Shown here piece by piece: positions 35,986-51,771 of a stretch of 64,000 nucleotides of DNA. The position numbers and the translations under genes were made by a program. Location: assembly GCF_000424305.1 (NCBI RefSeq), contig NZ_AUJQ01000003.1:124001-188000 (forward strand), read 5' to 3'. Below the pieces are notes generated by a model. The model was given only the letters and a program-made list of their open reading frames with translations, had not been told where the DNA came from and did not search any database. The stretch's first letter is position 1, and each line of letters opens with the position of its first letter. This stretch comes from Pseudobutyrivibrio ruminis AD2017 (GTDB lineage Bacteria > Bacillota > Clostridia > Lachnospirales > Lachnospiraceae).

Positions 35986-36000
35986 TATAATAATTAAAGA

Positions 36001-36090
36001 TAGCCTGTAGCTAACAAGCTATGATATTTCTTGAGCGAAGCATTTTAGCTGAGCGGAGAAATCATCATGCTTGTGAGCGTAACAGGCGAG
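36001..36090 (+). repeat. Dispersed ~90-nt hairpin element, copy A (deoC leader)
   Basis: Long imperfect hairpin: CCTGT/ACAGG (36004-36008, 36082-36086), ACAAGC/GCTTGT (36014-36019, 36069-36074), ATTTCT/AGAAAT (36026-36031, 36057-36062), with the apical segment AGCGAAGCATTTTAGCTGAG. Copy B at 51642-51730 has the same layout with changed but still paired arms. It ends directly at the deoC ribosome-binding site. Confidence 0.75.
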
Positions 36091-36100
36091 GAGGTACATT

Positions 36101-36778
36101 ATGGATATTAAGAACATTTTAAGCAAGTGCGATCACACATTACTTGGTGTTGACGCAACATGGAATGACATTAAGGGGATTGTAGATGACGGAATGAAGT
36201 ACGAAACTGCTTCAGTTTGTATCCCAGCAAGCTTTGTAAAGCAGGCTGCTGAGTACGTTAAGGAGCAGGGCGGACATCTTCCAATCTGTACAGTAATTGG
36301 CTTCCCTAACGGTTATGCTACAACAGCTTCTAAGTGCTTCATGGCAAGCGATGCTGTAGATAACGGTGCTGATGAAGTTGATATGGTTATCAATGTAGGT
36401 TGGGTTAAGGAAGGACGTTACGATGATGTTCTTTCTGAAATCAACGCTATTAAGGCTGCTTGCAATGGTAAGCTTCTTAAGGTAATCATCGAGTGCTGCT
36501 TACTTACAGATGAAGAGAAGATTAAGATGTGCGAAGTTGTTTCTAAGTCAGATGCAGATTACATCAAGACTTCAACAGGCTTCTCAACAGGCGGAGCTAC
36601 ATTTGATGATATCAAGCTTATGGCTGCTCACATGACAAATGGCAAGCTTATCAAGGCTGCAGGCGGAATTGCTTCACTTGAAGATGCACAGAAGTTTATC
36701 GACCTTGGAGCAAGCCGTCTTGGAACAAGCCGTGTTGTTAAGGCTGTAAAGGGATTACCAAACGACGGTAAGTACTAA
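36101..36778 (+). CDS. deoC: Deoxyribose-phosphate aldolase
   Basis: 225 aa. Class I aldolase splitting 2-deoxyribose 5-phosphate into glyceraldehyde 3-phosphate and acetaldehyde, in deoxynucleoside breakdown. Schiff-base lysine in [15 protein letters not shown], second active-site lysine in [10 protein letters not shown], and [13 protein letters not shown]-like substrate loop ([13 protein letters not shown]). GAGGAGG precedes the ATG. Follows valS and a hairpin element; cdd and a nucleoside importer lie 3-5 kb downstream, consistent with nucleoside salvage. Confidence 0.95.
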
Positions 36779-36824
36779 TTCACGAAATTACACTATTGTG
36801 AAAATTTAATGAAAATTAAAGCAA

Positions 36825-36881
36825 ATTGGTAAATTTTCATGACAAATTACCAATAAAAATCTATAATTAATTTGATATAGT
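36825..36881 (+). promoter_or_regulatory. Promoter and possible operator of the fapA-like gene
   Basis: Extended -10 TGA-TATAGT (36873-36881). Directly upstream, where a -35 would lie, is an 8-bp inverted repeat ATTGGTAA/TTACCAAT (36825-36832, 36847-36854). This suggests a regulated start about 40 bp before the gene. Confidence 0.5.
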
Positions 36882-36920
36882 TTATTAATTTTTTAAACAA
36901 GATTTTTATTTGGGGGACTT

Positions 36921-38321
36921 ATGGCTACGCCAATAAATGCACTTGCACCAAAAGTTCAAGTCTCATCAAACGGCTTAGAAGCAACTATGACTTTTAAGAT
37001 TCCTGATGGGAGCAGCGATGTGCCCAAGTTTACTGCTGCGCAGTTGCTTGGGTTCTTGAACAATGCAAATGTTACCTTTGGTATTGACCAGGACATGCTG
37101 GTAAGGCTGGCTAACAGCCCAATTTATGGACGTCCAGTCAAGGTAGCTGAAGGCACTGCACAGCAGCAGGGAACCCCAGGATATTTTGAATATCATTTTG
37201 ATACAACTGTTAATCGTAAGCCAACCATTCGTCCAGATGGAACAGCTGATTACATGAGTATTAAGACTATCGAGACTATACAGGAAGGCGATGTTATTGC
37301 AACATATCATCCAGCTGTACAGGGAAGTCGAGGTATGTCTGTACGTGGACAAATATTAGAGCCAAAGCCAGTGCGTGATCTTCCACCATTAATAGGCAGA
37401 GGTTTTGACAGATCCAGCGATAATCTTACATACACAGCTAAGATTACTGGTAAAATCGAAGTTAATCAGGGAAAGATTAATATATCTCCAGTTCATGAGG
37501 TAAAGGGAGATGTAGGAATCGAAACAGGCAACATCAAATTCAACGGTGATGTTATAGTTCATGGCGGCGTTCATGATGGCGCTGTTATTGATGCTGCGGG
37601 AAATGTTATCATCCACGGCCTTATCGAAGATTGCGATATCCGCGCAGGCAAGGATTTATTCTTACTGTCGGGCGTCAAAGGAAACGAGAAGACTATCATA
37701 GATTGTAGAGGCTCTGTAACTGCACAGTTTATAGAGTATGCAATCATTACCTGTGGTGGAGATATTTCGGCTGATTATTTCTTTAAAAGCAAGGTATCTT
37801 GCGATGGACGAATTGAACTGAATGGCAACAACGCTTCCATAATAGGAGGCTACGTTTCGGCTGTTCGGGGAATAGAAGTTAATGATATAGGCAATTCCTT
37901 TGGAACAAACACAAATGTTGCAGTAGGTATTGATGTTGAACGAGCAGCGGAGTTTGAAATATTAGCCAAGAAGATACAGGCCATTACATCCAATGTTCAA
38001 AAGATTAAAAAAGGCATAGAAGAATTTGATAAATTAGGCGAGGAGCGTGGTATTAACTACAAGGAAGATCCTCGCAGAATGCAGCTTTTGAGAGTTCGCA
38101 TTAGAGATGAAGCGGTTGTTCTTGAGGAGACCAAAAAGCTCAACAGATTACGTGAGATTATTAAGTCTGGTGAAGGGGCAACTATTAGAGTACTTAGAAG
38201 ATTATACGCAGGAAGTAGCATTTCAATTGACGATCATCATGTGACCATTCAGGATACTCATGAAAGAGTTGAAATTGAAAAGAGCGAAGAGGGCGTTAAA
38301 TTAGTTAAAATTGGTGGTTAA
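36921..38321 (+). CDS. FapA (DUF342) family protein
   Basis: 466 aa. The N-terminal domain is followed by a long right-handed beta-helix-like region with repeated GDV and GNI turns (GDVGIETGNIKFNGDVIVHG; VIIHGLIEDCDIRAGKDL), and a C-terminal coiled coil (about 345-420). This is the FapA/DUF342 polymerase-associated or flagellar-assembly family; its biochemical role is not settled. A 47-aa protein gene follows after 3 bp. Confidence 0.85.
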   Translation: MATPINALAPKVQVSSNGLEATMTFKIPDGSSDVPKFTAAQLLGFLNNANVTFGIDQDMLVRLANSPIYGRPVKVAEGTAQQQGTPGYFEYHFDTTVNRKPTIRPDGTADYMSIKTIETIQEGDVIATYHPAVQGSRGMSVRGQILEPKPVRDLPPLIGRGFDRSSDNLTYTAKITGKIEVNQGKINISPVHEVKGDVGIETGNIKFNGDVIVHGGVHDGAVIDAAGNVIIHGLIEDCDIRAGKDLFLLSGVKGNEKTIIDCRGSVTAQFIEYAIITCGGDISADYFFKSKVSCDGRIELNGNNASIIGGYVSAVRGIEVNDIGNSFGTNTNVAVGIDVERAAEFEILAKKIQAITSNVQKIKKGIEEFDKLGEERGINYKEDPRRMQLLRVRIRDEAVVLEETKKLNRLREIIKSGEGATIRVLRRLYAGSSISIDDHHVTIQDTHERVEIEKSEEGVKLVKIGG

Positions 38322-38324
38322 ACT

Positions 38325-38468
38325 ATGATAGATTTTGAAGAAGAACTTAAGAAGTACGAGCCTGCCATTGAAGTGGAACAGGCCGAGGCTGATATTAAAG
38401 CAAGAGATCTTACAGATCTTACAGACTTGCTTTTTAACATGACAGCTCAAAATAACGGGACAAAATAG
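38325..38468 (+). CDS. Small acidic protein of 47 residues
   Basis: Begins 3 bp after the fapA-like stop and ends 32 bp before the next gene: MIDFEEELKKYEPAIEVE at the N-terminus, then an acidic helix and DLTDLLFNM near the end. Predicted mostly alpha-helical and acidic, with no membrane segment. Its place suggests co-translation with fapA. Function unknown. Confidence 0.6.
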   Translation: MIDFEEELKKYEPAIEVEQAEADIKARDLTDLTDLLFNMTAQNNGTK

Positions 38469-38500
38469 TTTTGGATTTTAGATATACTGGAGAATAATAG

Positions 38501-39895
38501 ATGCAGTGTTTTATGTGTGGTGCCGATGTTGGTGACAAAAATGTTTGTTACAATTGCGGCGCCGATATTTTACTATACAAACAAATCGTATACACGTCAT
38601 ACGTGTTCTATAATCAAGGCCTGGAAAAAGCCAAGGTCAGTGATTTATCTGGTGCAATAGAATCTTTAAAATCTTCGCTCCAATATTATAAATATAATAC
38701 AAGGGCAAGAAATTTATTGGGACTATGCTACTATCAGGTTGGCGAGCTTGTTCTTGCCATTAACGAGTGGGTTATTTCAAAGAACCTACAGGAAGATAAT
38801 CCTGATGCAGATAGATACCTGGCAGAAATTGAAAGTGCTCCAGGCTATTTACCAAAAATCAATTCCACTATCAAAAAATATAATCAGGCTATTGATTATT
38901 GCAAATCTGGTAGTAGAGACCTTGCAATCATACAATTGAAAAAGGTTATCAGTCAAAACGCTAATTTTGTTAAAGCACACCAGTTATTGGCTCTTCTTTA
39001 TATTGAAGAGTCTAAGTTTGCTGACGCAAGAAAGCTTTTAAATCAGGCGGCTAAAATCGATAGCAACAATACTACAACAATCAAATATATCCACGAGGTA
39101 AAATCCAGATTAAAGGAACAAAATACTGGTAGAAGGAAAAAGAAGAATGACACAGTATCTTTCATGGATGGAAACGATACAGTTGTTATGTCAGAAAAGT
39201 CCTTCAGAAGTATGCTGGATAATTCAAGATCAAGTCTTATGAACATATTACTTGGACTTGTTGTAGGCCTTTTGATTTGCTTCTTCTTAATTGTGCCAAC
39301 AGTCAGGGATAATGTTAAAGATGGCAATTCTAAAACTATACTTGCACTTAACGAGCAGTTGGCAGATGCAAATTCAAAGAACGATGCTCTTCAGCAGGAG
39401 ATAGATGGATTAAAGAATGATTTGAGCGCATACGATGACAAGCAAGATGTTGCTACATCTTATGATAATCTGTTTGCAGCTCAAAACTATTACAATTCAG
39501 GTGATAGTGCTACTGCCAGCCAGTACATTCAGCTTGTTACAAAGGAGGTTCTCGGGGAGCAGGGAAAGCAGGCTTACGATAACCTTTACACATCGTTGGC
39601 ACCAGCTATCATCCAGGGATATTATGATGATGGAAATAACTTCTATTCAGAAGAAAACTATGAAAGTGCAATTACAAATTTCAAAACAGTAGTAGATATT
39701 GATGAAAACTACGATAACGGGGCTGCATTGTTCCTTCTTGGTGATTGCTATAGACTTACCGACCAAAATGATTTGGCTCTTGAATGTTTTGAAAAGGTAG
39801 TTGAACTTTACCCTTCAAATAAGTGGGGAAAACAGGCTAAGGTATACATCGCTGTAGATGATACTAAGCTTGATGCTAAAGAGGTAGGTGAATAA
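38501..39895 (+). CDS. Zinc-ribbon, TPR and single-helix membrane protein
   Basis: 464 aa. An N-terminal zinc ribbon (CFMCGADVGDKNVCYNCG), TPR repeats (about 25-200), a membrane helix (about 248-270: ILLGLVVGLLICFFLIVP), a coiled coil (about 280-320) and a second TPR set outside the membrane (about 325-460). The layout fits a scaffold linking cytoplasmic and outer-face partners. It follows the fapA-like gene and the small protein, and cdd follows 1 bp after its stop. Confidence 0.8.
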   Translation: MQCFMCGADVGDKNVCYNCGADILLYKQIVYTSYVFYNQGLEKAKVSDLSGAIESLKSSLQYYKYNTRARNLLGLCYYQVGELVLAINEWVISKNLQEDNPDADRYLAEIESAPGYLPKINSTIKKYNQAIDYCKSGSRDLAIIQLKKVISQNANFVKAHQLLALLYIEESKFADARKLLNQAAKIDSNNTTTIKYIHEVKSRLKEQNTGRRKKKNDTVSFMDGNDTVVMSEKSFRSMLDNSRSSLMNILLGLVVGLLICFFLIVPTVRDNVKDGNSKTILALNEQLADANSKNDALQQEIDGLKNDLSAYDDKQDVATSYDNLFAAQNYYNSGDSATASQYIQLVTKEVLGEQGKQAYDNLYTSLAPAIIQGYYDDGNNFYSEENYESAITNFKTVVDIDENYDNGAALFLLGDCYRLTDQNDLALECFEKVVELYPSNKWGKQAKVYIAVDDTKLDAKEVGE

Positions 39896-39896
39896 A

Positions 39897-40352
39897 ATGA
39901 CAAACTTTGAGTTAGTAAAAATGGCCTTAGAGGCTAGAGAAATGGCGTACACACCATACTCACACCATAAGGTTGGTGCTGCTCTTTTATGTAAAGATGG
40001 AACAGTTTTCAAGGGATGTAATATAGAAAATGCAGGTTACACTCCAACAAACTGTGCTGAAAGAACGGCGGTATTTAAAGCAGTTAGTGAGGGTTATTAC
40101 GATTTTGATGCAATTGCAGTTGTAGGTGGCATGGATAGCCTTAAAGATTTGCCACTATGTGCTCCTTGTGGGGTATGTCGTCAGGTGTTAAACGAGTTTG
40201 GAGACCCAGATACATTTAAAATTATTTTGGCTGAAGTTAAGAATGTGGACAATTTAAACAAAATTCAGCCTGAGGATGTAACAATTATAGAACAAACGCT
40301 GAAAGAAATGCTTCCATATGGTTTTGGTCCAAAAAATTTGGACATAAAGTAG
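39897..40352 (+). CDS. cdd: Cytidine deaminase
   Basis: 151 aa from ATG 39897; a GTG at 39888 overlaps the previous gene. Zinc site: NCAERTAVF (Cys and catalytic Glu) and PCGVCRQVL (two Cys), with the substrate loop YTPYSHHKVGAALL. Converts (deoxy)cytidine to (deoxy)uridine. It stands directly before the nucleoside importer genes, and deoC is upstream. Confidence 0.95.
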   Translation: MTNFELVKMALEAREMAYTPYSHHKVGAALLCKDGTVFKGCNIENAGYTPTNCAERTAVFKAVSEGYYDFDAIAVVGGMDSLKDLPLCAPCGVCRQVLNEFGDPDTFKIILAEVKNVDNLNKIQPEDVTIIEQTLKEMLPYGFGPKNLDIK

Positions 40353-40372
40353 TCACAAAATCATCATAGTTC

Positions 40373-40400
40373 TTGAAAAAATAATGAAAATCTTTATAAT
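40373..40400 (+). promoter_or_regulatory. Promoter of the nucleoside-binding lipoprotein gene
   Basis: TTGAAA (40373-40378), 16 bp, TATAAT (40395-40400). A small hairpin GTTTCTA/TAGAAAC follows in the leader. No purine riboswitch core was seen. Confidence 0.75.
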
Positions 40401-40455
40401 CTATATTGTGAGTTTCTAAATTAAATAGAAACCAAAATATAGGAGGAATAGAAGA

Positions 40456-41619
40456 ATGAAAAAGAAGTTATTAAGCGTACTTCTTGTAGCTTCAATGGTA
40501 GCTACTATGTTCGTTGGATGCGGCTCAAGCAGCGATAGCGCAAGCAAAGAGTCAGCTTCAACAGAAGAGGGGGCTGCAGATGCAGCAACTAGCGATTACA
40601 GAATCGCTATGATTACAGACTCTGGTGACATCACAGATATGTCTTTCAACCAGACAACTTACGAGGCTGCAAAGGCATTTGCAGATAAGAATGGTGCTGA
40701 ATTCCAGTACTATAAGCCAACAGAAGATTCAGATGATGCACGTATCGCTTCATTTGAAAACGCTGTAACAGATGGTTACAACGTTATTGTAGTTCCAGGT
40801 TATTTATTTGCAAACATGATTAAGGAAGTTGCTGAGGATTATCCTAACGTAACAATCATCGCACTTGACTGTGGTGAGGGTGACTTCGGTGATTACAAGC
40901 TTCCTGAGAACGTTTGCTCTTTCACATATCAGGAAGAACTTGCTGGTTACATGGCAGGTTATGCAGCTGTTAAGGAAGGCTACACAAAGCTTGGTTTCCT
41001 TGGCGGTATGGCAGTTCCAGCTGTTATTCGTTACGGTTACGGTTTCGTACAGGGATGTAACGATGCTGCTGTAGAGCTTGGTAATGCTTCAGATGTTCAG
41101 GTTAACTATGTATATGGTGGCCAGTTCTTCGGTGATGAAGCTGTTACAGCTCAGATGGATACATGGTATTCAAACGGTACAGAAATTGTATTCGCTTGTG
41201 GTGGTGGTATCTACACATCAGCTTGCGAGGCAGCTCAGAAGGTTGACGGTAAGGTAATCGGTGTTGACTCTGATCAGTCAGGCACAATTGCTCAGCAGTA
41301 TGGTGATGACAAGCTTTGTGTAACATCAGCAATGAAGGGTCTTGCTCCTACAGTTGATAGCACACTTACAGATTTATTCGCAGGCAACTGGTCTAACTAT
41401 GCTGGTAAGATCGAGAACCTTGGTATCGTATCAGGTGATGATCCTTCACTTAACTATGTACAGCTTCCTACAGATACATGGTCAATGGAGAACTTCACAG
41501 TTGATGATTACAAGGAACTTGTAGCTAAGATGTTCGCAGGTGATATCACAGTTGATAACTCAACAGATAAGATGCCAGCAACAGAAATCACTGTAAAGGA
41601 ATATGATAATATTCACTAA
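40456..41619 (+). CDS. BMP-family nucleoside-binding lipoprotein of an ABC importer
   Basis: 387 aa. Lipoprotein signal peptide with lipobox MFVGC (Cys22) and a Ser/Ala-rich linker, then a BMP/PnrA fold: IAMITDSGDITDMSFNQ, IVVPGYLFANMI and GKVIGVDSDQSG. PnrA-type proteins bind purine or other nucleosides at the membrane surface. Its ATPase and two permeases follow after a terminator. AGGAGG precedes the ATG. Confidence 0.92.
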   Translation: MKKKLLSVLLVASMVATMFVGCGSSSDSASKESASTEEGAADAATSDYRIAMITDSGDITDMSFNQTTYEAAKAFADKNGAEFQYYKPTEDSDDARIASFENAVTDGYNVIVVPGYLFANMIKEVAEDYPNVTIIALDCGEGDFGDYKLPENVCSFTYQEELAGYMAGYAAVKEGYTKLGFLGGMAVPAVIRYGYGFVQGCNDAAVELGNASDVQVNYVYGGQFFGDEAVTAQMDTWYSNGTEIVFACGGGIYTSACEAAQKVDGKVIGVDSDQSGTIAQQYGDDKLCVTSAMKGLAPTVDSTLTDLFAGNWSNYAGKIENLGIVSGDDPSLNYVQLPTDTWSMENFTVDDYKELVAKMFAGDITVDNSTDKMPATEITVKEYDNIH

Positions 41620-41642
41620 TATTCCCGAAAGGCTTTTTACAA

Positions 41643-41674
41643 AAGGGAGGGATTTAATTCCTTCCCTTTTTTTT
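41643..41674 (+). terminator. Terminator between binding-protein and transporter genes
   Basis: Hairpin AAGGGAGGGA/TTCCTTCCCTT (41643-41668, one G-U pair) followed by eight T. A second weak hairpin AATACG/CGTGTT with a T-run lies at 41699-41722. Partial read-through would give more binding protein than transporter. The rest of the gap (to 41815) shows only an inverted repeat GATAGT/ACTATC (41766-41795). Confidence 0.85.
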
Positions 41675-41815
41675 GAAATAATCAAAGCTTTAAAATCTAA
41701 TACGTATAGCGTGTTATTTTTTATGGTTTTGCTGTTCATATAGGGGAGAGCAATATCAGCAAATAGATAGTTAATAAGCGCCATAGTTTACTATCAAAGA
41801 AAGGGTTTAAATGCG

Positions 41816-43354
41816 ATGGAAGATTATGTAATTGAGATGTTGCATATCACAAAGGAATTCCCAGGTATCATTGCAAATGACGATATTACTTTGCAGTTGA
41901 AGCGTGGTGAAATTCATGCACTTCTCGGGGAGAATGGTGCCGGTAAGTCTACTCTTATGAGTGTACTTTTTGGTCTATATACTCCAGAAAAAGGTGTCAT
42001 CAAAAAGGATGGCAAAGAAGTAAAAATTAACAATCCAAATGATGCTACTGATTTAGGTATTGGAATGGTTCACCAGCACTTCATGTTGGTTGATATTTTC
42101 AGTGTACTTGATAACATCATCCTTGGTTCAGAGCCTAGCAAGTTTGGCTTCCTTACTAAGGCAGAGGCTAGAAAAAAGGTTATGGATTTGTCTAACAGGT
42201 ACAATCTTAAGGTTGATCCAGATGCTCTTATTGAAGATATCACTGTTGGTATGCAGCAGCGTGTAGAGATTCTTAAGATGCTTTACAGAGATAACGATAT
42301 CCTTATTTTTGATGAGCCTACTGCAGTTCTTACTCCACAGGAAATCGATGAACTCATGAAAATCATGAAGGAATTGGCAGCAGAAGGAAAGTCAATCTTA
42401 TTTATTACTCATAAGTTAAACGAAATCATGGAAGTAGCTGATAGATGTTCTATCCTTAGAAAGGGTAAATATATCGGCACTGTAGATGTTGCTAACACTA
42501 CAAAGGAAGAGCTTTCTTCAATGATGGTTGGACGTAATGTTAAGTTCGCTGTTGATAAGGAAGAAGCTAAGCCTACTGATGAAGTTCTTAAGGTTGAGAA
42601 CGTTTGCGTTAAGAGTAAGATTCATTCTAATGATTCAGTACACAATGTTTCATTCAACGTTCGCGCTGGTGAAATCGTTTGTATAGCAGGTATCGATGGA
42701 AATGGTCAGACAGAGTTCGTTGGGGCGCTCACAGGACTTGATGATATTTCTAGCGGAAAGATTACTTTGTGCGGCGAAGATATTACTAAAAAATCAATCC
42801 GTTTTAAGAATACTCATGGAATGAGCCATATTCCAGAAGATAGACACAAGCATGGTCTTGTTCTTGATTATACTCTTGAGGAAAACATGATTCTTCAAAG
42901 ATACTTCGAGCCAGCATTCCAGAAGGGCGGCATCATCAAGAAGAAGGAGATGCGTGCTTACTCAGATAGATTAACAAAAGCATTCGACGTTCGTTCAGGA
43001 CAGGGAGCTTTATCAAAGGTTCGTTCAATGTCAGGTGGTAACCAGCAGAAAGCTATTGTTGCCCGTGAGATGGATAGAGACCACGAGCTTTTAATTGCTG
43101 TTCAGCCTACACGTGGACTTGATGTTGGTGCTATCGAATATATTCATAAGGAAATCGTTAAGGAAAGAGATGCTGGTAAGGCAATCCTCTTAGTTTCCCT
43201 TGAATTAGACGAGGTTATGAATCTTTCAGACAGAATTCTTGTTATGTATGAAGGAGAAATCGTCGGAGAGGTTGATCCAAAGAAGACTACTCTTCAGGAA
43301 TTAGGATTATACATGTCAGGTGCAAAACGTGACGATAGAAGGGAGGCTAAGTAA
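41816..43354 (+). CDS. Nucleoside ABC importer ATPase, two ABC domains (NupO/YufO-like)
   Basis: 512 aa, tandem ABC modules as in sugar/nucleoside importers. First half: GENGAGKSTLMSVLFG, VGMQQRVEILKML, DILIFDEPTAVLTP. Second half: GIDGNGQTEFVGALTG (no Lys-Ser/Thr), SGGNQQKAIVAREM and ELLIAVQPTRGLDVGA, so the second site is degenerate as usual in this family. Energises nucleoside uptake with the permeases at 43354 and 44494. Stop overlaps the next ATG (TAATG). Confidence 0.93.
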   Translation: MEDYVIEMLHITKEFPGIIANDDITLQLKRGEIHALLGENGAGKSTLMSVLFGLYTPEKGVIKKDGKEVKINNPNDATDLGIGMVHQHFMLVDIFSVLDNIILGSEPSKFGFLTKAEARKKVMDLSNRYNLKVDPDALIEDITVGMQQRVEILKMLYRDNDILIFDEPTAVLTPQEIDELMKIMKELAAEGKSILFITHKLNEIMEVADRCSILRKGKYIGTVDVANTTKEELSSMMVGRNVKFAVDKEEAKPTDEVLKVENVCVKSKIHSNDSVHNVSFNVRAGEIVCIAGIDGNGQTEFVGALTGLDDISSGKITLCGEDITKKSIRFKNTHGMSHIPEDRHKHGLVLDYTLEENMILQRYFEPAFQKGGIIKKKEMRAYSDRLTKAFDVRSGQGALSKVRSMSGGNQQKAIVAREMDRDHELLIAVQPTRGLDVGAIEYIHKEIVKERDAGKAILLVSLELDEVMNLSDRILVMYEGEIVGEVDPKKTTLQELGLYMSGAKRDDRREAK

Positions 43355-44490
43355 TGGAAGAAAAAGTTAGCTTTATTAAAAGACCAGGCGTTCAAACATT
43401 ACTAGCTTCAGTATTATGTGCAATACTTGGTATTATTATCGGATTTATCATCCTTTGGTTTATGAATTCAGAGCATGCTGCAGAAGGTATGGGAGCAATC
43501 CTTACAAACTTCTTCAAATACAGAATTGCAAGCTCTAAAACATTAATGAAGTACATGGGTTCATTCCTTGTAAACTCAGTACCAGTTATCCTTTGTGCGG
43601 AAGCAATCTTATTTGCTTACAAGGCAGGTCTTTTCAACATTGGAGCTGCAGGACAGTATACAGTTGGTATTATTGCCAGCCTTTATACTTCACTTGCACT
43701 TGGTTGGAATTGGTTCTTCTGCTTACTTGCAGCTATCGTTGCAGGTGGTCTCTGGGGACTTATCGCAGGTATCTTCAAGGCTTACTTCAACGTAAACGAA
43801 GTAATCGCAGGTATCATGCTTAACTGGATTGGTCTTTACATTTGTAACATCATCCTTGGTGGTGAAGCTTGTATGAACCAGTCTAAATCAGAAACATACG
43901 AGATTTCAGAGGTTAACCCTTCTGGTATCTTACCAGGATTTATGCAGGATTTCTTTGGCGAGAATCAGTACATGACAATTGCCATTCCTCTTACAATCAT
44001 CGTTGCTATCGTAATTCTTGTTGTTCTTAATAAGACAACATTTGGTTATGAGCTTAAGGCTACAGGTCATAACAAAGAAGCTGCAAAATATGCAGGTATG
44101 AATGCAAAGAGAAATATCATGCTTACACTCCTTATTTCAGGAGCAATCGCTGGTATGGCAGCAGGTCTTCTTTACTTAACTGGTATTCAGCATTATAAGA
44201 TCGCTTCATCTGTTCCAGGCATGGGCTTCACTGGTATTGCTGTTGCATTCCTTGGTGGTCTTAACCCTATCGGAACAATTTTTGCAGGATTATTTGTTGA
44301 GTACATCACACTTGGTGGTCAGTACCTTAACACAAACTACTACAATCCACAGGTTGCAGACCTTATGATCGCAATCATCATTTACTTATGCGGATTCGTA
44401 TTGTTCTTCAAGACAATACTTAACAGACCAGGTAAGGTAAAGGTTAACGCTAATGCCGAGCCTGATAAAACTACAAAGAAGGAGGTGTAA
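43354..44490 (+). CDS. Nucleoside ABC importer permease (NupP/YufP-like)
   Basis: 378 aa with about nine helices and the BPD_transp_2 region (FGYELKATGHNKEAAKYAGM, the coupling-helix EAA-like segment). Membrane partner of the two-domain ATPase. Overlaps the ATPase stop by 1 bp and precedes the second permease by 3 bp. Confidence 0.93.
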   Translation: MEEKVSFIKRPGVQTLLASVLCAILGIIIGFIILWFMNSEHAAEGMGAILTNFFKYRIASSKTLMKYMGSFLVNSVPVILCAEAILFAYKAGLFNIGAAGQYTVGIIASLYTSLALGWNWFFCLLAAIVAGGLWGLIAGIFKAYFNVNEVIAGIMLNWIGLYICNIILGGEACMNQSKSETYEISEVNPSGILPGFMQDFFGENQYMTIAIPLTIIVAIVILVVLNKTTFGYELKATGHNKEAAKYAGMNAKRNIMLTLLISGAIAGMAAGLLYLTGIQHYKIASSVPGMGFTGIAVAFLGGLNPIGTIFAGLFVEYITLGGQYLNTNYYNPQVADLMIAIIIYLCGFVLFFKTILNRPGKVKVNANAEPDKTTKKEV

Positions 44491-44493
44491 GGA

Positions 44494-45447
44494 ATGTCAG
44501 GATTATTATTACTTATTCAATACACACTTATCTTCTCTGCAGTACTTATTCTCGTAGCTTTGGGCGGTATGTTCTCAGAGCGAAGCGGTATCATCAACCT
44601 TGGTCTTGAAGGTATCATGGTATTCGGCGCTATGGCTGGTGCTATGGTAATGGTTCTTCTTCCAGGTGATGCACCAAAGGCAACTGTTATCATTCTTACA
44701 CTTTTAGCATCTGCTTTAGCAGGAATGATTTCATCACTTCTTATTGCAGTTGCATGTATTAACTTTAAGGCAGACCAAACACTTATTGGTACAGCTGTTA
44801 ACATGCTTGCAACAGCAGCTGCTACAGTTATCATCAAGGCATTCAACACAGCACGTTCAAACGGTGCAGATTTCTCTGCAAAGCTTGATTACGTAAAAGG
44901 TCATGATGCATTTGTATTCTACATTGGCAAGCTTCAGATTAGCTGGTTCATTGTAGTTGCAGCCATTTTACTTGTTTGTGCAATCGTATTCTTCTATAAG
45001 ACAAAGCTTGCACTTCGTATCCGTGCTTGCGGTGAGCATCCACAGGCTGCAGATTCAGTTGGTATCAACGTATATGCTATGCGTTACATCGGTGTGCTTA
45101 TGTCAGGTTTCCTAGGTGGTATCGGTGGTATTATTTACATCTGTGCTGCTAACTCAACATGGCACTTTGATTACGGTGTAGCTGGTGCAGGTTTCCTTGC
45201 TCTTGCCGTTATGATTTTTGGTCAGTGGAAGCCAGAGCGTATTGCTTGGTCAGCAGTGCTTTTCGCATTGTTCCGCTCACTTTCAAACGTATACATGGGT
45301 ATTGGATTCTTACATGCGCTTCCAATCTCAGGAACTGTTTACAACATGTTCCCATACATCGTTTCACTTATCGTACTTGCATTCACATCACAGAATTCTC
45401 GTGCACCTAAGGCCGAGGGTATCCCATACGATAAGGGACAGAGATAA
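44494..45447 (+). CDS. Nucleoside ABC importer permease (NupQ/YufQ-like)
   Basis: 317 aa, about nine helices, same BPD_transp_2 family: FSERSGIINLGLEGIMVFGA near the N-terminus and LRIRACGEHPQAADSVGI as coupling segment. Second half of the heterodimeric pore. AAGGAGGTG before the ATG. Ends at a terminator. Confidence 0.93.
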   Translation: MSGLLLLIQYTLIFSAVLILVALGGMFSERSGIINLGLEGIMVFGAMAGAMVMVLLPGDAPKATVIILTLLASALAGMISSLLIAVACINFKADQTLIGTAVNMLATAAATVIIKAFNTARSNGADFSAKLDYVKGHDAFVFYIGKLQISWFIVVAAILLVCAIVFFYKTKLALRIRACGEHPQAADSVGINVYAMRYIGVLMSGFLGGIGGIIYICAANSTWHFDYGVAGAGFLALAVMIFGQWKPERIAWSAVLFALFRSLSNVYMGIGFLHALPISGTVYNMFPYIVSLIVLAFTSQNSRAPKAEGIPYDKGQR

Positions 45448-45463
45448 TATAAGACATTTATTA

Positions 45464-45497
45464 AGGCTTGAAGTTGAAAAACTTCAGGCCTTTTTTT
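45464..45497 (+). terminator. Terminator of the nucleoside importer operon
   Basis: Hairpin AGGCTTGAAGTT/AACTTCAGGCCT (45464-45491, one mismatch) followed by seven T. Confidence 0.88.
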
Positions 45498-45569
45498 CAC
45501 AAAAAATTAACTATTAGGCTGTAAAATAAAACCTGCAAGATTATGGATTTGTATGAGGTTTAAGATTAT

Positions 45570-46667
45570 ATGAAACGGCTTGAGATTGAAGAAATTAAAC
45601 CGGGGATGATTTTGGCAGAAGATATAATAAGTCCTCGCGGCCAATTATTAGCTGAAGCTGGTACACCTGTTACTGCTCAGCAGCTTTTGCATGTAGGCTA
45701 TTACGGTATAAGATTCCTTTCAATCAGGGATGTAGAAGATGTAGTAGAGATTTATAATTTAGATGCTCCGGATGAGTTTATTGGTGAAACGCAATCCTGG
45801 AGGATCATTAATAGTAAAGAGTTTGCGGAATTCAAACGAGCATATATAAAATGTGCAGATCAGTTAGAAGAAATCGTAAATGATTTTGTTCATAATCAGG
45901 GCAGTTTGAATGACGAAGCGCTTCTAGAGGATATACACACTGTTTTTGAAGAACATTCAACAGGCCTTGGAATCATGGCGATGATGTTAAATGTCCAGGA
46001 AATTGATGCCAGCACATATAGACATTGTGTAAATGTTGCTATTATATCCAGAGTATGTGGTGGTTGGCTTGGAATTACAGATAAAAAGGAATTGGATGTA
46101 CTTACTATGTGTGGCTTATATCACGATATAGGAAAGTCACTTATCCCACAGCATATTTTAACCAAGGAAGGCCCTTTAACACCGGATGAATTTGGCAGGA
46201 TGTCGGAGCATCCACTTCTAGGATATCATCTACTGACAGATGCAGAAATCGACAGGCGAATAAAGCTTGCAGCCCTTCAGCATCATGAACGAAATGATGG
46301 AAGTGGATATCCATATGGACTTACCAAGGAATTTATTAATTATTATTCCAAGATAGTATCTATCACGGATGTGTACGATGCCATGACAGCGGACAGATGT
46401 TATCGAGCTGGTATTTGCCCGTTTGAAGTAATAGCCCAGTTTCAGAGACAAAATCCTAGCAAATATGATCAAAATGTATTGCAGGTGTTCCTGAAAAATA
46501 TAGCCCAATCATACATTGGTACAGGCGTGCTGTTATCGGATAACAGCAGGGGCATAATAACAATGATTAACGATAAAGCTTTATCTAGTCCTCTGGTCAA
46601 ATTAGATGATGGAACCTTCGTAGATTTACGTGAAAGAACGGATTTATTCATCCGAGCATGTATATAA
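45570..46667 (+). CDS. HD-GYP c-di-GMP phosphodiesterase
   Basis: 365 aa. N-terminal DUF3391-like part (ILAEDIISPRGQLLAEAGT) and an intact HD-GYP domain: metal-binding HDIGK, EHPLLGYHLL, and HHERNDGSGYP with the GYP signature. Such enzymes hydrolyse cyclic di-GMP to pGpG or GMP. No membrane segment. It is a single-gene unit between two terminators. Two more c-di-GMP proteins are encoded at 52738 and 55898. Confidence 0.93.
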   Translation: MKRLEIEEIKPGMILAEDIISPRGQLLAEAGTPVTAQQLLHVGYYGIRFLSIRDVEDVVEIYNLDAPDEFIGETQSWRIINSKEFAEFKRAYIKCADQLEEIVNDFVHNQGSLNDEALLEDIHTVFEEHSTGLGIMAMMLNVQEIDASTYRHCVNVAIISRVCGGWLGITDKKELDVLTMCGLYHDIGKSLIPQHILTKEGPLTPDEFGRMSEHPLLGYHLLTDAEIDRRIKLAALQHHERNDGSGYPYGLTKEFINYYSKIVSITDVYDAMTADRCYRAGICPFEVIAQFQRQNPSKYDQNVLQVFLKNIAQSYIGTGVLLSDNSRGIITMINDKALSSPLVKLDDGTFVDLRERTDLFIRACI

Positions 46668-46674
46668 AATGTTC

Positions 46675-46705
46675 AGGGGATTGCCTAGTGCAATCCTCTT
46701 TTTTT
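46675..46705 (+). terminator. Terminator of the HD-GYP gene
   Basis: 10-bp stem (46675-46684 with 46690-46699, one G-U pair) containing GGATTGC/GCAATCC, followed by a seven-T run. Confidence 0.85.
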
Positions 46706-46761
46706 GTGCCGAAAAAAAATTTGAAAAAAGCGTCAAAAGATAATCAATCATGCCTGTTTTG

Positions 46762-46853
46762 TGGTATAGTATAATTTGTGAAATAATAAACAAAAAAGGC
46801 TCTAATTTCCCATTTAGGGAATTTATATATAGGGAGCTAAAGTAAAAAGGAGG
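46762..46853 (+). promoter_or_regulatory. Promoter and leader of the ech operon
   Basis: Extended -10 TGG-TATAGT (46762-46770), no good -35. The leader holds nested inverted repeats: AATTTCCC/GGGAATT inside GGCTC/GAGCT, about 46798-46838, then AAGGAGG (46847-46853). Confidence 0.55.
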
Positions 46854-46861
46854 AAATGACA

Positions 46862-48811
46862 ATGGAAATGTTAGTAACAGCTTTAATCTGTTTACCATTT
46901 CTCTGGGCGATTTTGCCTGCAGTTATTCACAATTCTAAGTGCAGAGCATTTTTCGTCTATCTAGGTTGTGGAATCGTTATTGCACTTTCGGTTTTTACAG
47001 CTGTTAAGTGGTACTTGGCAGGCGGCCAGGCCACAGATTTTGATTTGCCATACAGAGAGGCATTTGATCATGTTATCTTAGTTGGCGATATCTTCTTGAT
47101 GTGTCTCATCACATATCTTTCATTCAAGTATAAGAAGGGAGTTATTTCACTGCTCGCAATTGTACAGACAGTACTTGTTGCAGCACTCGAGCTCTTTGGA
47201 CCAAAGGTTCAGGAGGCCCCAGCCCTTCACTTTGACTGGCTTACATTCGTTATGATTCTTATCATCGGTGTAGTAGGTTCATTAATCGGTATCTATGCTG
47301 TAGGTTACATGCATGGTTATCACATTCATCATCACAAGGAGCTTACAGACAGACGTAGCTTTTTCCTTGCAATGATCTTCGTATTCTTCGGAGCAATGTT
47401 CGGCCTTGTATTTTCACAGAGCCTTATCTGGTTATATTTCTTCTGGGAAATTACATCAGTTACATCATTCTTGCTCATTGGTTACACACGTACAGAAGAA
47501 GCTATCAACAATTCTTTCAAGGCATTGTGGATGAACCTTCTTGGTGGTTGCGGTATCGCAGCAGCTATCGCAGTTGGTGTTCTTCTTTACCAGAACGTTA
47601 ACCTTTACGACATGATTAAGATTGCAATTCTTAGCAAGTACATGGGTGTTCCAAATACACTTTGCTTACTTCCAATCGCTTGCCTTGCATTTGCAGCTCT
47701 TACAAAGTCAGCTCAGTTCCCATTCTCAGGATGGTTACTTGGAGCCATGGTAGCACCAACACCTTCATCTGCACTTCTTCATAGTGCAACAATGGTTAAG
47801 GCTGGTGTATATCTTCTTATCCGTATTTCAGTAGCAATGGCTGACAATTACGTAGGAAACATGGTTGCCCTTGTTGGCGGCTTCACATTCCTTGCAGCAT
47901 CTTGCCTTGCTATTTCAGTATCTGATGGAAAGAAGGTACTTGCTTACTCAACAATCTCTAACCTTGGTCTTATCGTTGCATGTACAGGCTGTGGTTATGA
48001 GGAAACAATCTGGGCAGCAGTATTCCTTGTAATTTTCCATGCTGTATCAAAGTCAATGCTCTTCCAGTGCGTTGGTGCTATTGAGAACACAACAGGTAGC
48101 CGTGACGTAGAAGACATGCAGGGATTGATTTCACTCTTCCCTAAGCTTGCAGTTGTACTTATGATTGGTATCGCAGGTATGTTCCTTGCTCCATTTGGTA
48201 TGCTTATTTCTAAGTGGGCAGCGCTTAAGGCATTCATCGATACATCTTCAGTATATGTATCAACACTTATGGTACTTTTCATCTGCTTCGGTTCAGCTAC
48301 AACAATGTTCTACTGGACAAAGTGGATGTCAAAGATTCTTGGCGCTTCTGGAAAGGAAAAGTCAAGAGACCTTACAAAGAAGAACGAGTACATCTCAATG
48401 TTCTTCCACGCATTTATGATGGTTGCACTTATCCTTGGATTCCCATGGCTTTCATCACACGTGCTTAAGCCAATGTCTAACGAGATGTTTGGTACAGATG
48501 TACAGGTTATTTCATACCAGAACATTATTATCATGATTGTATTACTTGTTGGCGTTTTTGTTATTCCAGCTATTAACTATGTATTAACAAAGAACACAAA
48601 GGCTAAGCAGGTTATCACATACATGGGTGGTGCTAACTGCGGAGACAACTTCAACTTTGTTTCTTCAACAGGTGACCCTAAGGAGATGCACATCTCTAAC
48701 TTCTACATGGAAGACATCATGGGTGAGAAGAAGTTATTCACACCAGCAATCATGGTATCAACAGTTATTATTATTGTTTACATGATTATCGTGATAGGAG
48801 GTGCATTCTAA
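46862..48811 (+). CDS. echA: Ech hydrogenase subunit A (proton-pumping, NuoL-like)
   Basis: 649 aa from ATG 46862, 8 bp from AAGGAGG; an ATG at 46856 is only 2 bp from it. About 16 helices; the NuoL/MrpA-type core is visible in LIWLYFFWEITSVTSFLLIG, a conserved Glu/Lys channel area, and SAQFPFSGWLLGAMVAPTP with its following HS. The subunit couples electron transfer from ferredoxin to protons with ion translocation. First gene of echABCDEF. Confidence 0.93.
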   Translation: MEMLVTALICLPFLWAILPAVIHNSKCRAFFVYLGCGIVIALSVFTAVKWYLAGGQATDFDLPYREAFDHVILVGDIFLMCLITYLSFKYKKGVISLLAIVQTVLVAALELFGPKVQEAPALHFDWLTFVMILIIGVVGSLIGIYAVGYMHGYHIHHHKELTDRRSFFLAMIFVFFGAMFGLVFSQSLIWLYFFWEITSVTSFLLIGYTRTEEAINNSFKALWMNLLGGCGIAAAIAVGVLLYQNVNLYDMIKIAILSKYMGVPNTLCLLPIACLAFAALTKSAQFPFSGWLLGAMVAPTPSSALLHSATMVKAGVYLLIRISVAMADNYVGNMVALVGGFTFLAASCLAISVSDGKKVLAYSTISNLGLIVACTGCGYEETIWAAVFLVIFHAVSKSMLFQCVGAIENTTGSRDVEDMQGLISLFPKLAVVLMIGIAGMFLAPFGMLISKWAALKAFIDTSSVYVSTLMVLFICFGSATTMFYWTKWMSKILGASGKEKSRDLTKKNEYISMFFHAFMMVALILGFPWLSSHVLKPMSNEMFGTDVQVISYQNIIIMIVLLVGVFVIPAINYVLTKNTKAKQVITYMGGANCGDNFNFVSSTGDPKEMHISNFYMEDIMGEKKLFTPAIMVSTVIIIVYMIIVIGGAF

Positions 48812-49680
48812 TGACAGAACGTATTATTATTGCAGTACTTTATGTACTCCTTGCACCTTTCGTAATTGGTTTATTAGATGGTTTCGACAGAAAGATTTCT
48901 GCTCGTATGCAGGGCAGACGTGGTCCTTCAGTATTGCAGCCATTCTTCGATTTAAAGAAGTTATTCGAAAAGGAATTTTTAACAGCTAACAAGGCACAGC
49001 TTTTTATGATTCGTTCATACTTAGTATTTATCGTATTATCAGGCGTGCTTTTCTTCGGTGGATTTGATATTTTGCTTGTTGTATTTTCACTTTCTACAGC
49101 AGCAATGTTCTTAATCCTTGCTTCAACATCAACTCATTCACCATACTCTGCACAGGGTACTCACAGAGAGCTTGTTCAGATTATGTCATGTGAGCCAATG
49201 GAGCTTTTAGTTGCAGTTGGATTTTATCTTGCAATCGGTACATTTAATGTAAACGAAATCATCAAGACATCGATTTCACCAATCGCATACCTTCCTGGAT
49301 TCTTTGTAGGATTCGTATTTATCCTTACAATCAAATTCAGAAAGTCACCATTCGATATTGCTACATCTCACCACGCACACCAGGAAGTTATCAAGGGTGT
49401 TACATCTGAGATGGTAGGTAAGGAATACGGTATGGTAACACTTGCTGAGTGGTACGAGAATGCAATTCTTCTTGGTATAGTTGGATTGTTCTTCCTTAAC
49501 AGCAACCCAGTTTCAATCGTAGCTGCAATTATCGCAATCCTTGTTGTATGGTTCCTTGAAATCCTCATCGACAATACATCAGCAAGAGTTAAATGGCAGC
49601 TTATGCTCAAGCTTGCTTGGGGCGTAACAATTGTAGCAGCCGGAATGAACCTCTTATTATTAGAGATTATTCGTGGTTAA
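48811..49680 (+). CDS. echB: Ech hydrogenase subunit B (NuoH-like)
   Basis: 289 aa, about eight helices. LLDGFDRKISARMQGRRGPS and LVQIMSCEPMELLVAVG match the NuoH/EchB quinone-pocket region, which in Ech links the peripheral hydrogenase to the ion pump. Start overlaps the echA stop by 1 bp. Confidence 0.93.
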   Translation: MTERIIIAVLYVLLAPFVIGLLDGFDRKISARMQGRRGPSVLQPFFDLKKLFEKEFLTANKAQLFMIRSYLVFIVLSGVLFFGGFDILLVVFSLSTAAMFLILASTSTHSPYSAQGTHRELVQIMSCEPMELLVAVGFYLAIGTFNVNEIIKTSISPIAYLPGFFVGFVFILTIKFRKSPFDIATSHHAHQEVIKGVTSEMVGKEYGMVTLAEWYENAILLGIVGLFFLNSNPVSIVAAIIAILVVWFLEILIDNTSARVKWQLMLKLAWGVTIVAAGMNLLLLEIIRG

Positions 49681-49710
49681 TGGGTGAGTATATAATTAGG
49701 AGGAATTAAA

Positions 49711-50154
49711 ATGAGTACAATACATAAATCACCATGGTTACTCCACTATGATGGAAGTAGCTGTAATGGATGTGATATAGAAGTTCTAGCATGTACAACA
49801 CCTGTTTATGATGTAGAGCGTTTCGGCGTAATCAACACAGGTAACCCAATGCATGCAGATATTTTCCTTATTACTGGTGGTATCAACTCTCAGAACGAAG
49901 CTGTTGTTAAGCAGATTTATGAGCAGATGCCACAGCCAAAGGTAGTTATCGCCGTAGGTACATGCGCATGTACTGGTGGTATTTTCAAGGAATGCTACAA
50001 CATCAAGGGCGGAGCAGATACAGTTATCCCTGTAGATATTTATGTTCCAGGATGTGCAGCTCGTCCAGAGTCAATCATCGATGGTGTTGTTAAGGGTGTA
50101 GCACTTTTCAAGGAAAAGGCAGCAGCTCTTAAGGCTTCTGAGAATGCAAATTAG
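49711..50154 (+). CDS. echC: Ech hydrogenase small subunit C (NuoB-like)
   Basis: 147 aa. Four cysteine ligands for the proximal [4Fe-4S] cluster: SSCNGCDIE, GTCACTGG and PGCAARPE. It passes electrons between the NiFe site (EchE) and EchF. AGGAGG before the ATG. Confidence 0.94.
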   Translation: MSTIHKSPWLLHYDGSSCNGCDIEVLACTTPVYDVERFGVINTGNPMHADIFLITGGINSQNEAVVKQIYEQMPQPKVVIAVGTCACTGGIFKECYNIKGGADTVIPVDIYVPGCAARPESIIDGVVKGVALFKEKAAALKASENAN

Positions 50155-50166
50155 TAGGAGGATATT

Positions 50167-50529
50167 ATGCAGGAAATTAAAAAGGATATGTATTTAATTG
50201 ATAAGGCAGAGCTCCTCCAGGTCATCATGGAGAAGAAGAATGCTCTTTGGAGACTTTGCCAGATTTGCTGCTCTTTCCCAAAGGCAGAAAATCATTACGA
50301 GGTAACATATTCATTCGCTAATGGATATGACTTCGCTAACTATCGTCTTATCGTTGAGAAGGACGAGGATGTTCCATCAATCTCTCGTGTATACAAGTCA
50401 GCTATCTACTATGAGAACGAGATGCACGAGCTTTGGGGACTTAACGTAGAAAACATTAAGGTTGATCTTCACGATAAGCTTTATCGTATCGATGTAGAGA
50501 CACCATTTATCGAAAAGGAGGACAAGTAG
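50167..50529 (+). CDS. echD: Ech hydrogenase subunit D (NuoC-like)
   Basis: 120 aa, short homologue of the 30-kDa complex I subunit: DVPSISRVYKSAIYYENEMHE and the ELWGL block are the family signature. Hydrophilic, no cofactor residues. AGGAGG precedes the ATG and echE starts 1 bp after the stop. Confidence 0.9.
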   Translation: MQEIKKDMYLIDKAELLQVIMEKKNALWRLCQICCSFPKAENHYEVTYSFANGYDFANYRLIVEKDEDVPSISRVYKSAIYYENEMHELWGLNVENIKVDLHDKLYRIDVETPFIEKEDK

Positions 50530-50530
50530 C

Positions 50531-51610
50531 ATGGGAAAAAGAAGTATAGTACCTTATGGCCCACAGCATCCTGTTCTTCCAGAGCCTATTCATCTTGACT
50601 TAGTTTTGGAGGACGAGAAGGTTTTAGCTGCTATTCCTTCTATTGGATTTATTCACAGAGGTCTTGAGAGCCTTACAAGCAAGAAAGATTTTAACGAAAT
50701 GGTATACGTTGCAGAGCGTATCTGCGGTATCTGTTCATTCATGCACGGTATGGGTTACTGTATGGCAGTAGAGGACATTATGAACGTTGAAGTTCCTCGT
50801 CGTGCAGATTACCTCCGTACAATCTGGGCAGAGATGAGCCGTCTCCACAGCCACTTATTATGGCTTGGACTTCTTGCTGATGGATTCGGATTTGAATCAC
50901 TCTTCATGCATTCATGGAGACTTCGTGAGAACATTCTTGATATGTTCGAAGCATCAACAGGTGGACGTGTTATCTTCTCAGTAAACACAATCGGTGGTGT
51001 TCTTAAGGATATGCCTAACGATATGCTTAAGGAATTCGTTAAGAAGCTTGATGACATGGAGAAAGAAATCCGTGAGACAACAAGCATCTTCCTTAACGAT
51101 TACACAGTTAAGAGCCGTCTTGTAGGCGTTGGTATCCTTACAGGTGAGGATGCGATTCGTCGTGGAGCAGTAGGTCCTATGATGAGAGCATCTGGTATCA
51201 ACGTAGATATGAGAAAGAACGGTTATGCAGCATACAACGATATCGACTTCGATGTAATTACATCTAACAACTGCGATTCATACGCTCGTTGTGAAGTACG
51301 TATTGGAGAAATCTTCCAGTCAATCGATATCATCAGACAGTGTGTAGCAAAGATTCCTGATACAGAAATCAATACAAAGGTTACTGGTATGCCAAACGGT
51401 GAGTCAATCATCCGTGTTGAGCAGCCAAGAGGTGAGGCTTTCTATCATGTACGTGCTAACGGCACTAAGTTCTTAGACCGCTTCAGAGTCCGCACACCTA
51501 CATTCGCTAACATCCCTGCTCTTACACAGACACTTCAGGGATGCCAGTACGGTGACGTGCCACTCTTGGTATTAACTATCGACCCTTGTATCAGTTGTAC
51601 TGAACGATAA
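50531..51610 (+). CDS. echE: Ech hydrogenase large subunit E (NiFe catalytic)
   Basis: 359 aa. Both NiFe ligand pairs are present: N-terminal ERICGICS and C-terminal DPCISCTER, so the site should be catalytically complete. The protein ends at the second motif, so little or no C-terminal peptide remains for a maturation protease, as in other group 4 enzymes. HypB for nickel loading is encoded 9 kb downstream. Followed by a 161-bp structured gap before echF. Confidence 0.95.
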   Translation: MGKRSIVPYGPQHPVLPEPIHLDLVLEDEKVLAAIPSIGFIHRGLESLTSKKDFNEMVYVAERICGICSFMHGMGYCMAVEDIMNVEVPRRADYLRTIWAEMSRLHSHLLWLGLLADGFGFESLFMHSWRLRENILDMFEASTGGRVIFSVNTIGGVLKDMPNDMLKEFVKKLDDMEKEIRETTSIFLNDYTVKSRLVGVGILTGEDAIRRGAVGPMMRASGINVDMRKNGYAAYNDIDFDVITSNNCDSYARCEVRIGEIFQSIDIIRQCVAKIPDTEINTKVTGMPNGESIIRVEQPRGEAFYHVRANGTKFLDRFRVRTPTFANIPALTQTLQGCQYGDVPLLVLTIDPCISCTER

Positions 51611-51618
51611 TTAAATGA

Positions 51619-51754
51619 GCTTAGTATACAGAAATTATAAATAGCTGATAGTCTGCAAGCTCTGATAATTCTCAGCGAAGCATTCTTAGCTGAGCAGAGA
51701 ATTATTCAGGCTTGTAGGCGTAATCAGCGGGAGAAAGATTAGGCTATACTAAGC
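51619..51754 (+). repeat. Dispersed hairpin element, copy B (echE-echF gap), with outer stem
   Basis: Core 51642-51730: GCTGAT/ATCAGC (51644-51649, 51723-51728), GCAAGC/GCTTGT (51655-51660, 51710-51715), CTGATAATTCTC with GAGAATTATTCAG (51662-51673, 51697-51709), apical AGCGAAGCATTCTTAGCTGAG. Same layout as copy A at 36001. An extra 10-bp outer stem GCTTAGTATA/TATACTAAGC (51619-51628, 51745-51754) encloses this copy. It lies inside the ech operon. Confidence 0.75.
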
Positions 51755-51771
51755 GGATTGGAGGATATAGA

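Follow-up and report, generated by a model that had tools for sequence, protein, structure and literature searches.

Two hairpins in Pseudobutyrivibrio ruminis AD2017, one between valS and deoC (copy 1) and one between two genes resembling echE and echF (copy 2), are members of one dispersed family with one fold. Both lie in the 64,000-nucleotide (nt) stretch analyzed here (contig NZ_AUJQ01000003.1, positions 124,001 to 188,000; hereafter the window). With its dozens of copies, drifting sequence and kept shape, the family looks like mobile DNA turned into a working mRNA structure. Holding the view with slightly more confidence than doubt, we interpret it as a high-copy, genus-specific dispersed hairpin, similar to repetitive extragenic palindromes (REPs), that is or once was mobile and whose fold is kept as an intercistronic mRNA hairpin. 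A reading made from the sequence alone had singled out these two hairpins; both are confirmed where it placed them, on the + strand, by the sequence itself and by R1, a covariance model built from 25 copies (Table 1). Each folds far better than its shuffled counterparts (z-scores of -5.28 for copy 1 and -5.85 for copy 2, with 0 of 200 shuffles equally good in either case); given these scores and the covariation of the family, a chance hairpin was rejected.

Selection for structure on the sense strand, with the sequence drifting while the pairing is kept, is well supported. When 63 copies from the AD2017 genome are aligned by fitting to the covariance model, 95.6% of 2,000 cells are paired and 28 of the 32 base pairs are doubly changed; doubly changed cells number 498, versus 132 after shuffling and 72-105 with slid partners. 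The same pattern appears when 25 copies are aligned with MAFFT (115 doubly changed cells, versus 28 shuffled and 14-19 slid). On the sense strand, G-U cells far outnumber A-C cells: 58 versus 6 in the AD2017 copies, 23 versus 1 in the MAFFT alignment, and 120 versus 16 when the copies of a second genome, G014, are added (G numbers denote the other genomes compared, L numbers extracted loci). The excess in this last set holds both in pairs with a GC majority (57 versus 12) and in those with an AU majority (63 versus 4). Since a cruciform would give equal numbers, a constraint on the double strand is an unlikely source of this excess.

At orthologous sites in AD2017 and G014, 33 same-orientation pairs of copies could be compared, one of them a nested remnant. 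Among the 26 pairs with more than 80% element identity there are 21 compensated double changes and 1 broken one, besides 12 wobble singles and 18 breaks; single transitions keep pairing 12 times and break it 3 times in this set, and 19 and 7 times across all orthologous pairs except the remnant. For 15 of the 64 AD2017 copies the comparison included no G014 region, and the pair at L086 9015, misregistered in alignment A4 and below 80% identity, lies outside the counts used. An apparently inverted pair at L070 3046 was rejected as an artefact, having been matched to the G014 copy orthologous to L070 3197.

The sequence-only reading had taken the arm differences between the two window copies as the mark of a selected RNA or DNA structure. 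Covariation and orthologous compensation bear this out and identify the sense strand as the structured one. Two of its three examples, CCTGT/ACAGG against CTGAT/ATCAG and ATTTCT/AGAAAT against AATTCTC/GAGAATT, are true double changes; the third, ACAAGC against GCAAGC with GCTTGT opposite both, is a one-sided change from A-U to G-U and not covariation.

Family size, range and anatomy

A blastn search of the AD2017 genome with copy 1 returned 40 matches, 24 of them near full length by our count. R1 returned 83 matches at E <= 1 and 64 at E <= 1e-4, the other 19 being dropped as weak or as the reverse strand of a copy already counted; on the extracted AD2017 regions it gave 65 matches at E <= 1e-5, or 63 copies once two overlap duplicates (L065/L092) were removed. 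A second covariance model, R2, built from the R1 matches of this genome, likewise found 63 copies there, and over 29 Pseudobutyrivibrio genomes it found 1,665, with 28 of the 29 positive and 0 to 141 copies in each (up to 143 candidates scored per genome). The covariance-model search proposed with the sequence-only reading thus returned many more copies in this genome and its relatives, and the reading, which would have fallen on a lack of further copies and of covariation, stands.

The family is filed as genus-specific; it fits the kind of the dispersed intergenic palindromes and differs from known REPs. An exact-pattern scan of a collection of genomes from 84,980 species gave 29 matches, every one titled Pseudobutyrivibrio. 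No copy was found in 32 genomes outside the genus (up to 68 candidates scored per genome) or in 297 other genera of Lachnospiraceae (up to 13 candidates per genome), numbers of candidates so small that weak relatives could be missed. Collections of plasmids and phages gave no match to copy 1, nor did viral contigs to one exact pattern, and a phage, plasmid or viral origin was rejected on these searches. A known Rfam family was also rejected: none was found in the window at gathering score, and eight loci searched at E <= 1 yielded one sub-threshold match, which reached 19.9 bits where the gathering score is 60. A literature search of open-licence PMC papers found no description of the hairpin family. 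A weak pattern match at position 22452 of the window, apparently within coding sequence, was taken as chance.

The element is about 95 nt long, with model matches of 92-101 nt in 122 of 123 copies (64 from AD2017, 59 from G014). Its outer stem, variable in sequence (GCCTGT/ACAGGC in copy 1), ends at an internal loop that has TAG in its 5' strand and CGTAA in its 3' strand. GUAG is present in 53 of 64 AD2017 and 46 of 59 G014 rows, its G and U paired in the outer helix 1, in which 98.4% of cells are paired; CGUAA is present in 56 of 64 and 47 of 59. Above the loop, a long inner stem contains an invariant CAA/TTG (63 of 63 AD2017 copies) and leads to an apical domain with a tandem G-A between covarying pairs (AGC/GCT, GAC/GTC and others). 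The arms between the motifs are free in sequence, 23-26 nt long on the 5' side and mostly 23-25 nt on the 3' side; motif to motif, the 5' arm measures 24-25 nt in 114 of 123 copies, the 3' arm 23-24 nt in 116, copies of very different length being ones that might have escaped the covariance model. This rigid spacing of two motifs, close to two helical turns, suggests recognition by a dedicated protein that binds double strands or hairpins. The 3' flanks fall by eye into a few types, many running into CTAGGAG or a similar Shine-Dalgarno sequence. At the echE-echF site of other genomes (L287, L288, L299 and L303), the arms of the family are topped by another apical hairpin (TTTTTTGAGAGTATAGCGAAAGCGATGAAAAAA or a close variant), which suggests a modular build-up.

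Copy 2 is a nested compound, its hairpin enclosed by outer arms that are changed yet, by eye, largely complementary in G018 and G012. The Ech gene names are those of the sequence-only reading; the best models for both genes score below their cut-offs, PRK06075 being the best NCBIfam model for the echE-like gene (cut-off 360).

Table 1. Positions of the two hairpin copies, their parts and the adjoining genes in the window
Feature	Position	Strand	Evidence
valS, cistron upstream of copy 1	33337..35985	+	NF004349 valine--tRNA ligase, 1267 bits, cut-off 704
Copy 1, full covariance-model match, between valS and deoC	35995..36092	+	R1, 102.7 bits, E 6.1e-24
5' arm of copy 1 outer stem (partner 36082-36087)	36003..36008	+	sequence, fold, covarying helix 1
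TAG motif at the base of the inner hairpin, copy 1	36008..36010	+	GTAG at 36007-36010
Copy 1 apical domain, tandem G-A 36037-36038 / 36051-36052	36035..36054	+	sequence; flanking pairs covary
Copy 1 CGTAA motif, facing TAG	36078..36082	+	motif conservation across copies
Copy 1 outer stem, 3' arm	36082..36087	+	fold
deoC Shine-Dalgarno AGGAGG, immediately 3' of copy 1 hairpin	36089..36094	+	sequence
deoC, cistron downstream of copy 1	36101..36778	+	TIGR00126, 226.6 bits, cut-off 117.3
echE-like gene (NuoD / hydrogenase large-subunit family), upstream of copy 2	50531..51610	+	PRK06075, 321.4 bits, below cut-off
Copy 2 outer compound arm, 5' (GCTTAGTATA)	51619..51628	+	fold of 51607-51775, z -6.61
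Copy 2, covariance-model match (inner hairpin 51644-51728)	51636..51733	+	R1, 85 bits, E 3.1e-19
Copy 2 outer compound arm, 3' (TATACTAAGC)	51745..51754	+	same fold of 51607-51775
Shine-Dalgarno GGAGG of gene downstream of copy 2	51760..51764	+	sequence
echF-like 4Fe-4S protein gene, downstream of copy 2	51772..52149	+	Fer4_7; NuoI-type models below cut-off

Placement in the genome and turnover of sites

With genes called by our own simple open reading frame (ORF) caller, 46 of 63 AD2017 copies lie in sense orientation between co-directional genes, 13 in convergent gaps and 4 in antisense (3 of these head to head beside a sense copy), and none in divergent gaps. The 59 copies of G014 divide into 41 sense co-directional, 10 convergent, 7 antisense and 1 divergent, against a background of 563 gaps in the same windows, which were centred on copies (468 co-directional, 46 convergent, 49 divergent). 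In G003, 51 copies (one of 52 matches, at a window edge, was dropped) comprise 27 sense co-directional, 11 convergent, 13 antisense and no divergent placements; the 20 windows used there were picked for copies on the minority strand, so these counts are not frequencies. In 35 of the 46 AD2017 sense copies, which often stand just before the Shine-Dalgarno sequence, no more than 40 nt separate the end of the match from the next start codon; in 40 of the 59 copies with a co-oriented upstream gene, the stop codon of that gene lies within 40 nt. The sequence-only reading had both copies just ahead of a ribosome-binding site and one within an operon; both points stand, and copy 1, between valS and deoC, is intercistronic as well. 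Some copies in convergent gaps form terminator stems; tails with a T run, as classed by a regular expression, occur in only 18 of 123 copies, so terminators do not describe the family as a whole.

The genes downstream of 30 of the 63 copies were scanned (one protein in part), and 27 have a Pfam match. Named from their Pfam families, they are of mixed housekeeping types, among them era-, cysK-, leuA-, smpB-, htpG-, purH-, der-, prfB-, pyrF-, polA-, smc-, gpsA- and ptsH-like genes; no transposase was found among the 30. Lacking a common theme in this set, a single shared regulon was rejected. The translational switch that the sequence-only reading had also entertained gains nothing from these genes, and nothing else beyond nearness to a Shine-Dalgarno sequence speaks for it.

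Sites turn over between species. Judged by eye from 230 nt in 29 genomes, the valS-deoC site holds the family hairpin in 6, a second element (B) in 6, a third (C) in 3 and no element in 12, with 2 not readable (L118 and L135, partial, were dropped); in tight empty sites, such as ATGAAATAGGAGG, the stop codon lies inside the Shine-Dalgarno sequence. The three species whose DeoC diverges most (87-93% identity; assemblies 82-86% complete) have 0, 1 and 8 copies, none of them at deoC. The echE-echF site, also tallied by eye in 28 genomes (L308, partial, dropped), has the hairpin in 8, the arms with another apical hairpin in 4, element B in 1, no element in 12, and other or unreadable contents in 3. 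Three of the four copies in the L086 region are missing from the close relative G023, where the fourth is unreadable; in other species, two of these sites are taken by B or C elements. At orthologous regions of G014, 14 of 64 AD2017 copies are absent. Copies are also nested in copies, at three levels in L085 and two in L068, and copy 2 likewise sits inside outer arms.

Element B (GGCTTCCCC...GGGGAAGCTGTCACC..GGTGACTGATGAGGG) is a short, hairpin-forming repeat whose copies are nearly identical; it uses the intercistronic sites of the main family and was seen at L086 6361-6412 and in L111, L112, L116 and L304. Element C has one copy in the window, at 33183-33313 (+) upstream of valS, carrying GGCAAGCGCGAGCAGGGAGG and GGTGCCCTGCGGGAGCATG, with outer arms GCGGC/GCCGC; in relatives it is found between cistrons elsewhere, its outer arms different but again complementary, and at the valS-deoC site of the three genomes mentioned it includes pieces of the main hairpin in antisense. 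In G014, L253 5095-5189 and the sequence upstream of it (the orthologue of L069) contain incomplete copies of the main hairpin in tandem, followed by one complete copy. At L067 3030-3170 a copy stands between CTGTAG and GTAACC in a terminator stem, as though it had taken the place of the interior of an older copy.

Mobility, function and rival explanations

We infer mobility as such, co-transcription, the protection or processing of mRNA, and a dedicated binding protein; a role in mRNA processing or stability is compatible with the sequence patterns described above and is the function we prefer. The hairpin would be a non-autonomous mobile element inserted between genes and, once co-transcribed, would act as an intercistronic mRNA structure, the capacity in which its fold would be kept. 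It may protect the upstream cistron at its 3' end, mark a processing point, or both, and processing there would give the downstream cistron a structured 5' end; where operons end, the outer stem may also serve as a terminator stem. A putative double-strand- or hairpin-binding protein would recognize the two motifs at their fixed spacing. A bolder version, which we regard as possible but improbable, would have the family be a mobile intercistronic RNA part that spread through the genus by a non-Y1 route, arrived with or beside a Shine-Dalgarno sequence and was then selected by the host site by site, so that transposition would re-tune cistron ratios and terminators.

Several observations weigh against the preferred reading or its simplest form. 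The mobile miniature element suggested by the sequence-only reading is supported by copy number, by presence and absence at orthologous sites and by nesting; PF01797 (Y1 transposase) was not found in the AD2017 genome, and an IS200 partner or REP-associated tyrosine transposase (RAYT) was rejected there on that result. Several of the absent sites are deletion remnants and not pre-insertion sites (L082 3843, L063 3014, L093 3069), and by eye a 6-nt direct repeat (GCCAAT) is visible at one site in the L086 region and not clearly elsewhere. Antisense copies exist (4 of 63 in AD2017, 7 of 59 in G014 and 13 of 51 in the selected G003 windows). Sense orientation is, moreover, largely confounded with the direction of replication, and the two are hardly separable because nearly all genes follow the local majority strand: the genes oppose that majority at 1 of 47 co-directional copies in G014 and at 4 of 51 in AD2017, 3 of these 4 in windows of near-even gene split. 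The clear exceptions, L076 (AD2017), L256 10188 (G014) and L262 3269 (G003), all follow the genes; three are too few to settle transcription against replication. Copies in convergent gaps do not lean consistently toward the majority strand (with/against: 7/3 in G014, 5/7 in AD2017, 4/7 in G003). As to the covariation, a G-U excess is also expected if one DNA strand, and not RNA, is recognized. Of the 21 compensated doubles, 11 are transversion-transversion, and at some sites, such as L070 3197 compared with G014, the entire inner stem has changed and the flanks hardly at all; copying between arms or between copies may therefore contribute. Finally, one hairpin is inverted in place in the same convergent terminator of two species (L093 10395-10492, L222 8849-8946).

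The strongest rival, to which we give a minor share of belief, is a purely selfish element of REP/IS200 type acting as single-stranded DNA (ssDNA), in which a strand-specific nuclease needs the folded strand and the intergenic placement reflects tolerated insertions. It ranks first because 99 of 123 rows have GTAG at the foot of the hairpin, and TnpA-REP depends on GTAG and on one particular strand; that enzyme is described as strand-specific on GTAG REP hairpins and as cutting at CT (PMC8266576). In flank types I and II a CT recurs, by eye, immediately 3' to the hairpin; the structure is strand-specific, target duplication is not clear at most of the few sites compared, and nesting also fits. 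On the other hand, PF01797 was matched in 10 of the 29 genus genomes and not in the remaining 19 (many of them drafts), which include AD2017 and a genome with 97 copies, and R2 at E <= 0.01 found no hairpin copy in 18 Y1 loci. Three loci, L143, L144 and L148 (from G009, G002 and G028), encode weak RAYT-like Y1 proteins (44-47 bits against a cut-off of 80, in a scan of the matched stretches), and no hairpin copy was found in these loci. Compensatory change at fixed orthologous sites would also be unexpected if selection acted on mobility only. It is quite unlikely, in our judgment, that the covariation is instead mutational, with template switching at quasi-palindromes or conversion between copies rewriting the arms and leaving complementarity without function. 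The wholesale replacement of inner stems between near-identical flanks, the transversion doubles with no wobble intermediate and the hairpin inverted in place are what such copying would produce; it predicts no G-U excess, whereas one is seen in GC- and AU-majority pairs alike, and it leaves the fixed motifs, the fixed arm length and the placement unexplained.

A cis-regulatory RNA, either a switch or the binding site of a single regulator controlling the downstream genes as a regulon, would account for the fixed motifs and spacing and for the position ahead of the Shine-Dalgarno sequence. We think it very unlikely, given the mixed downstream genes, the 13 of 63 copies in convergent gaps and the turnover of sites between species. 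Ordinary intrinsic terminators or chance hairpins find some footing in the copies that form terminator stems with T runs; common internal motifs, a sequence family with covariation, and the predominance of co-directional neighbours with a start codon close by make this scarcely credible.

More than 1,000 homologous hairpins with filled and empty orthologous sites amount to a natural experiment, in which it becomes testable whether dispersed palindromes are mRNA parts or mere parasites, and how REP-like elements spread where a RAYT is not found. The family is also a ready RNA family for annotating rumen Lachnospiraceae.

Comparison with known systems

The family works like a REP and is not shown to be one, failing on size, on an unpaired GTAG and on a linked RAYT. 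GTAG-REPs, as described in PMC3733652, are palindromes of 20-40 bp with stems of 5-13 bp and an unpaired GTAG, reported from Proteobacteria, Cyanobacteria, Chloroflexi and the Planctomycetes-Verrucomicrobia-Chlamydiae (PVC) group; the word "Firmicutes" is absent from the main text of that paper. In both cases the palindromes are intergenic, of high copy number and mostly between unidirectional and convergent genes, and they carry GTAG at one end, at the foot of the hairpin (PMC3733652). Inverted dimers and strand specificity are further likenesses (PMC3733652, PMC8266576), and G-T pairs in REPs have been read as a hint of RNA function (PMC3733652). The hairpin described here differs in its length of about 95 nt with a ruler of about 24 nt, in a GTAG that is half-paired within a longer stem, and in that searches with PF01797 and of the Y1 loci found no linked RAYT (Y1) gene.

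Correia elements of Neisseria (Correia repeat enclosed elements, CREE) are likewise dispersed hairpin elements of mRNA, with strain-specific insertions and reported binding by RNase III that leads to cleavage or protection (PMC2649163). According to the same source, CREE insertions are often at TA, and the elements are able to create promoters and in some cases have IHF sites; the present family differs in avoiding divergent gaps, and no consistent target duplication was found in it at the few sites inspected by eye. Closer in lineage, the intercistronic stem-loops of Clostridium cellulolyticum, another member of the Clostridia, lie between operon cistrons and are reported to set cistron ratios through selective RNA processing and stabilisation (PMC4423207). 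Those stem-loops are not described in that account as one repeat family, whereas the hairpins reported here are one homologous family distributed over unrelated operons.

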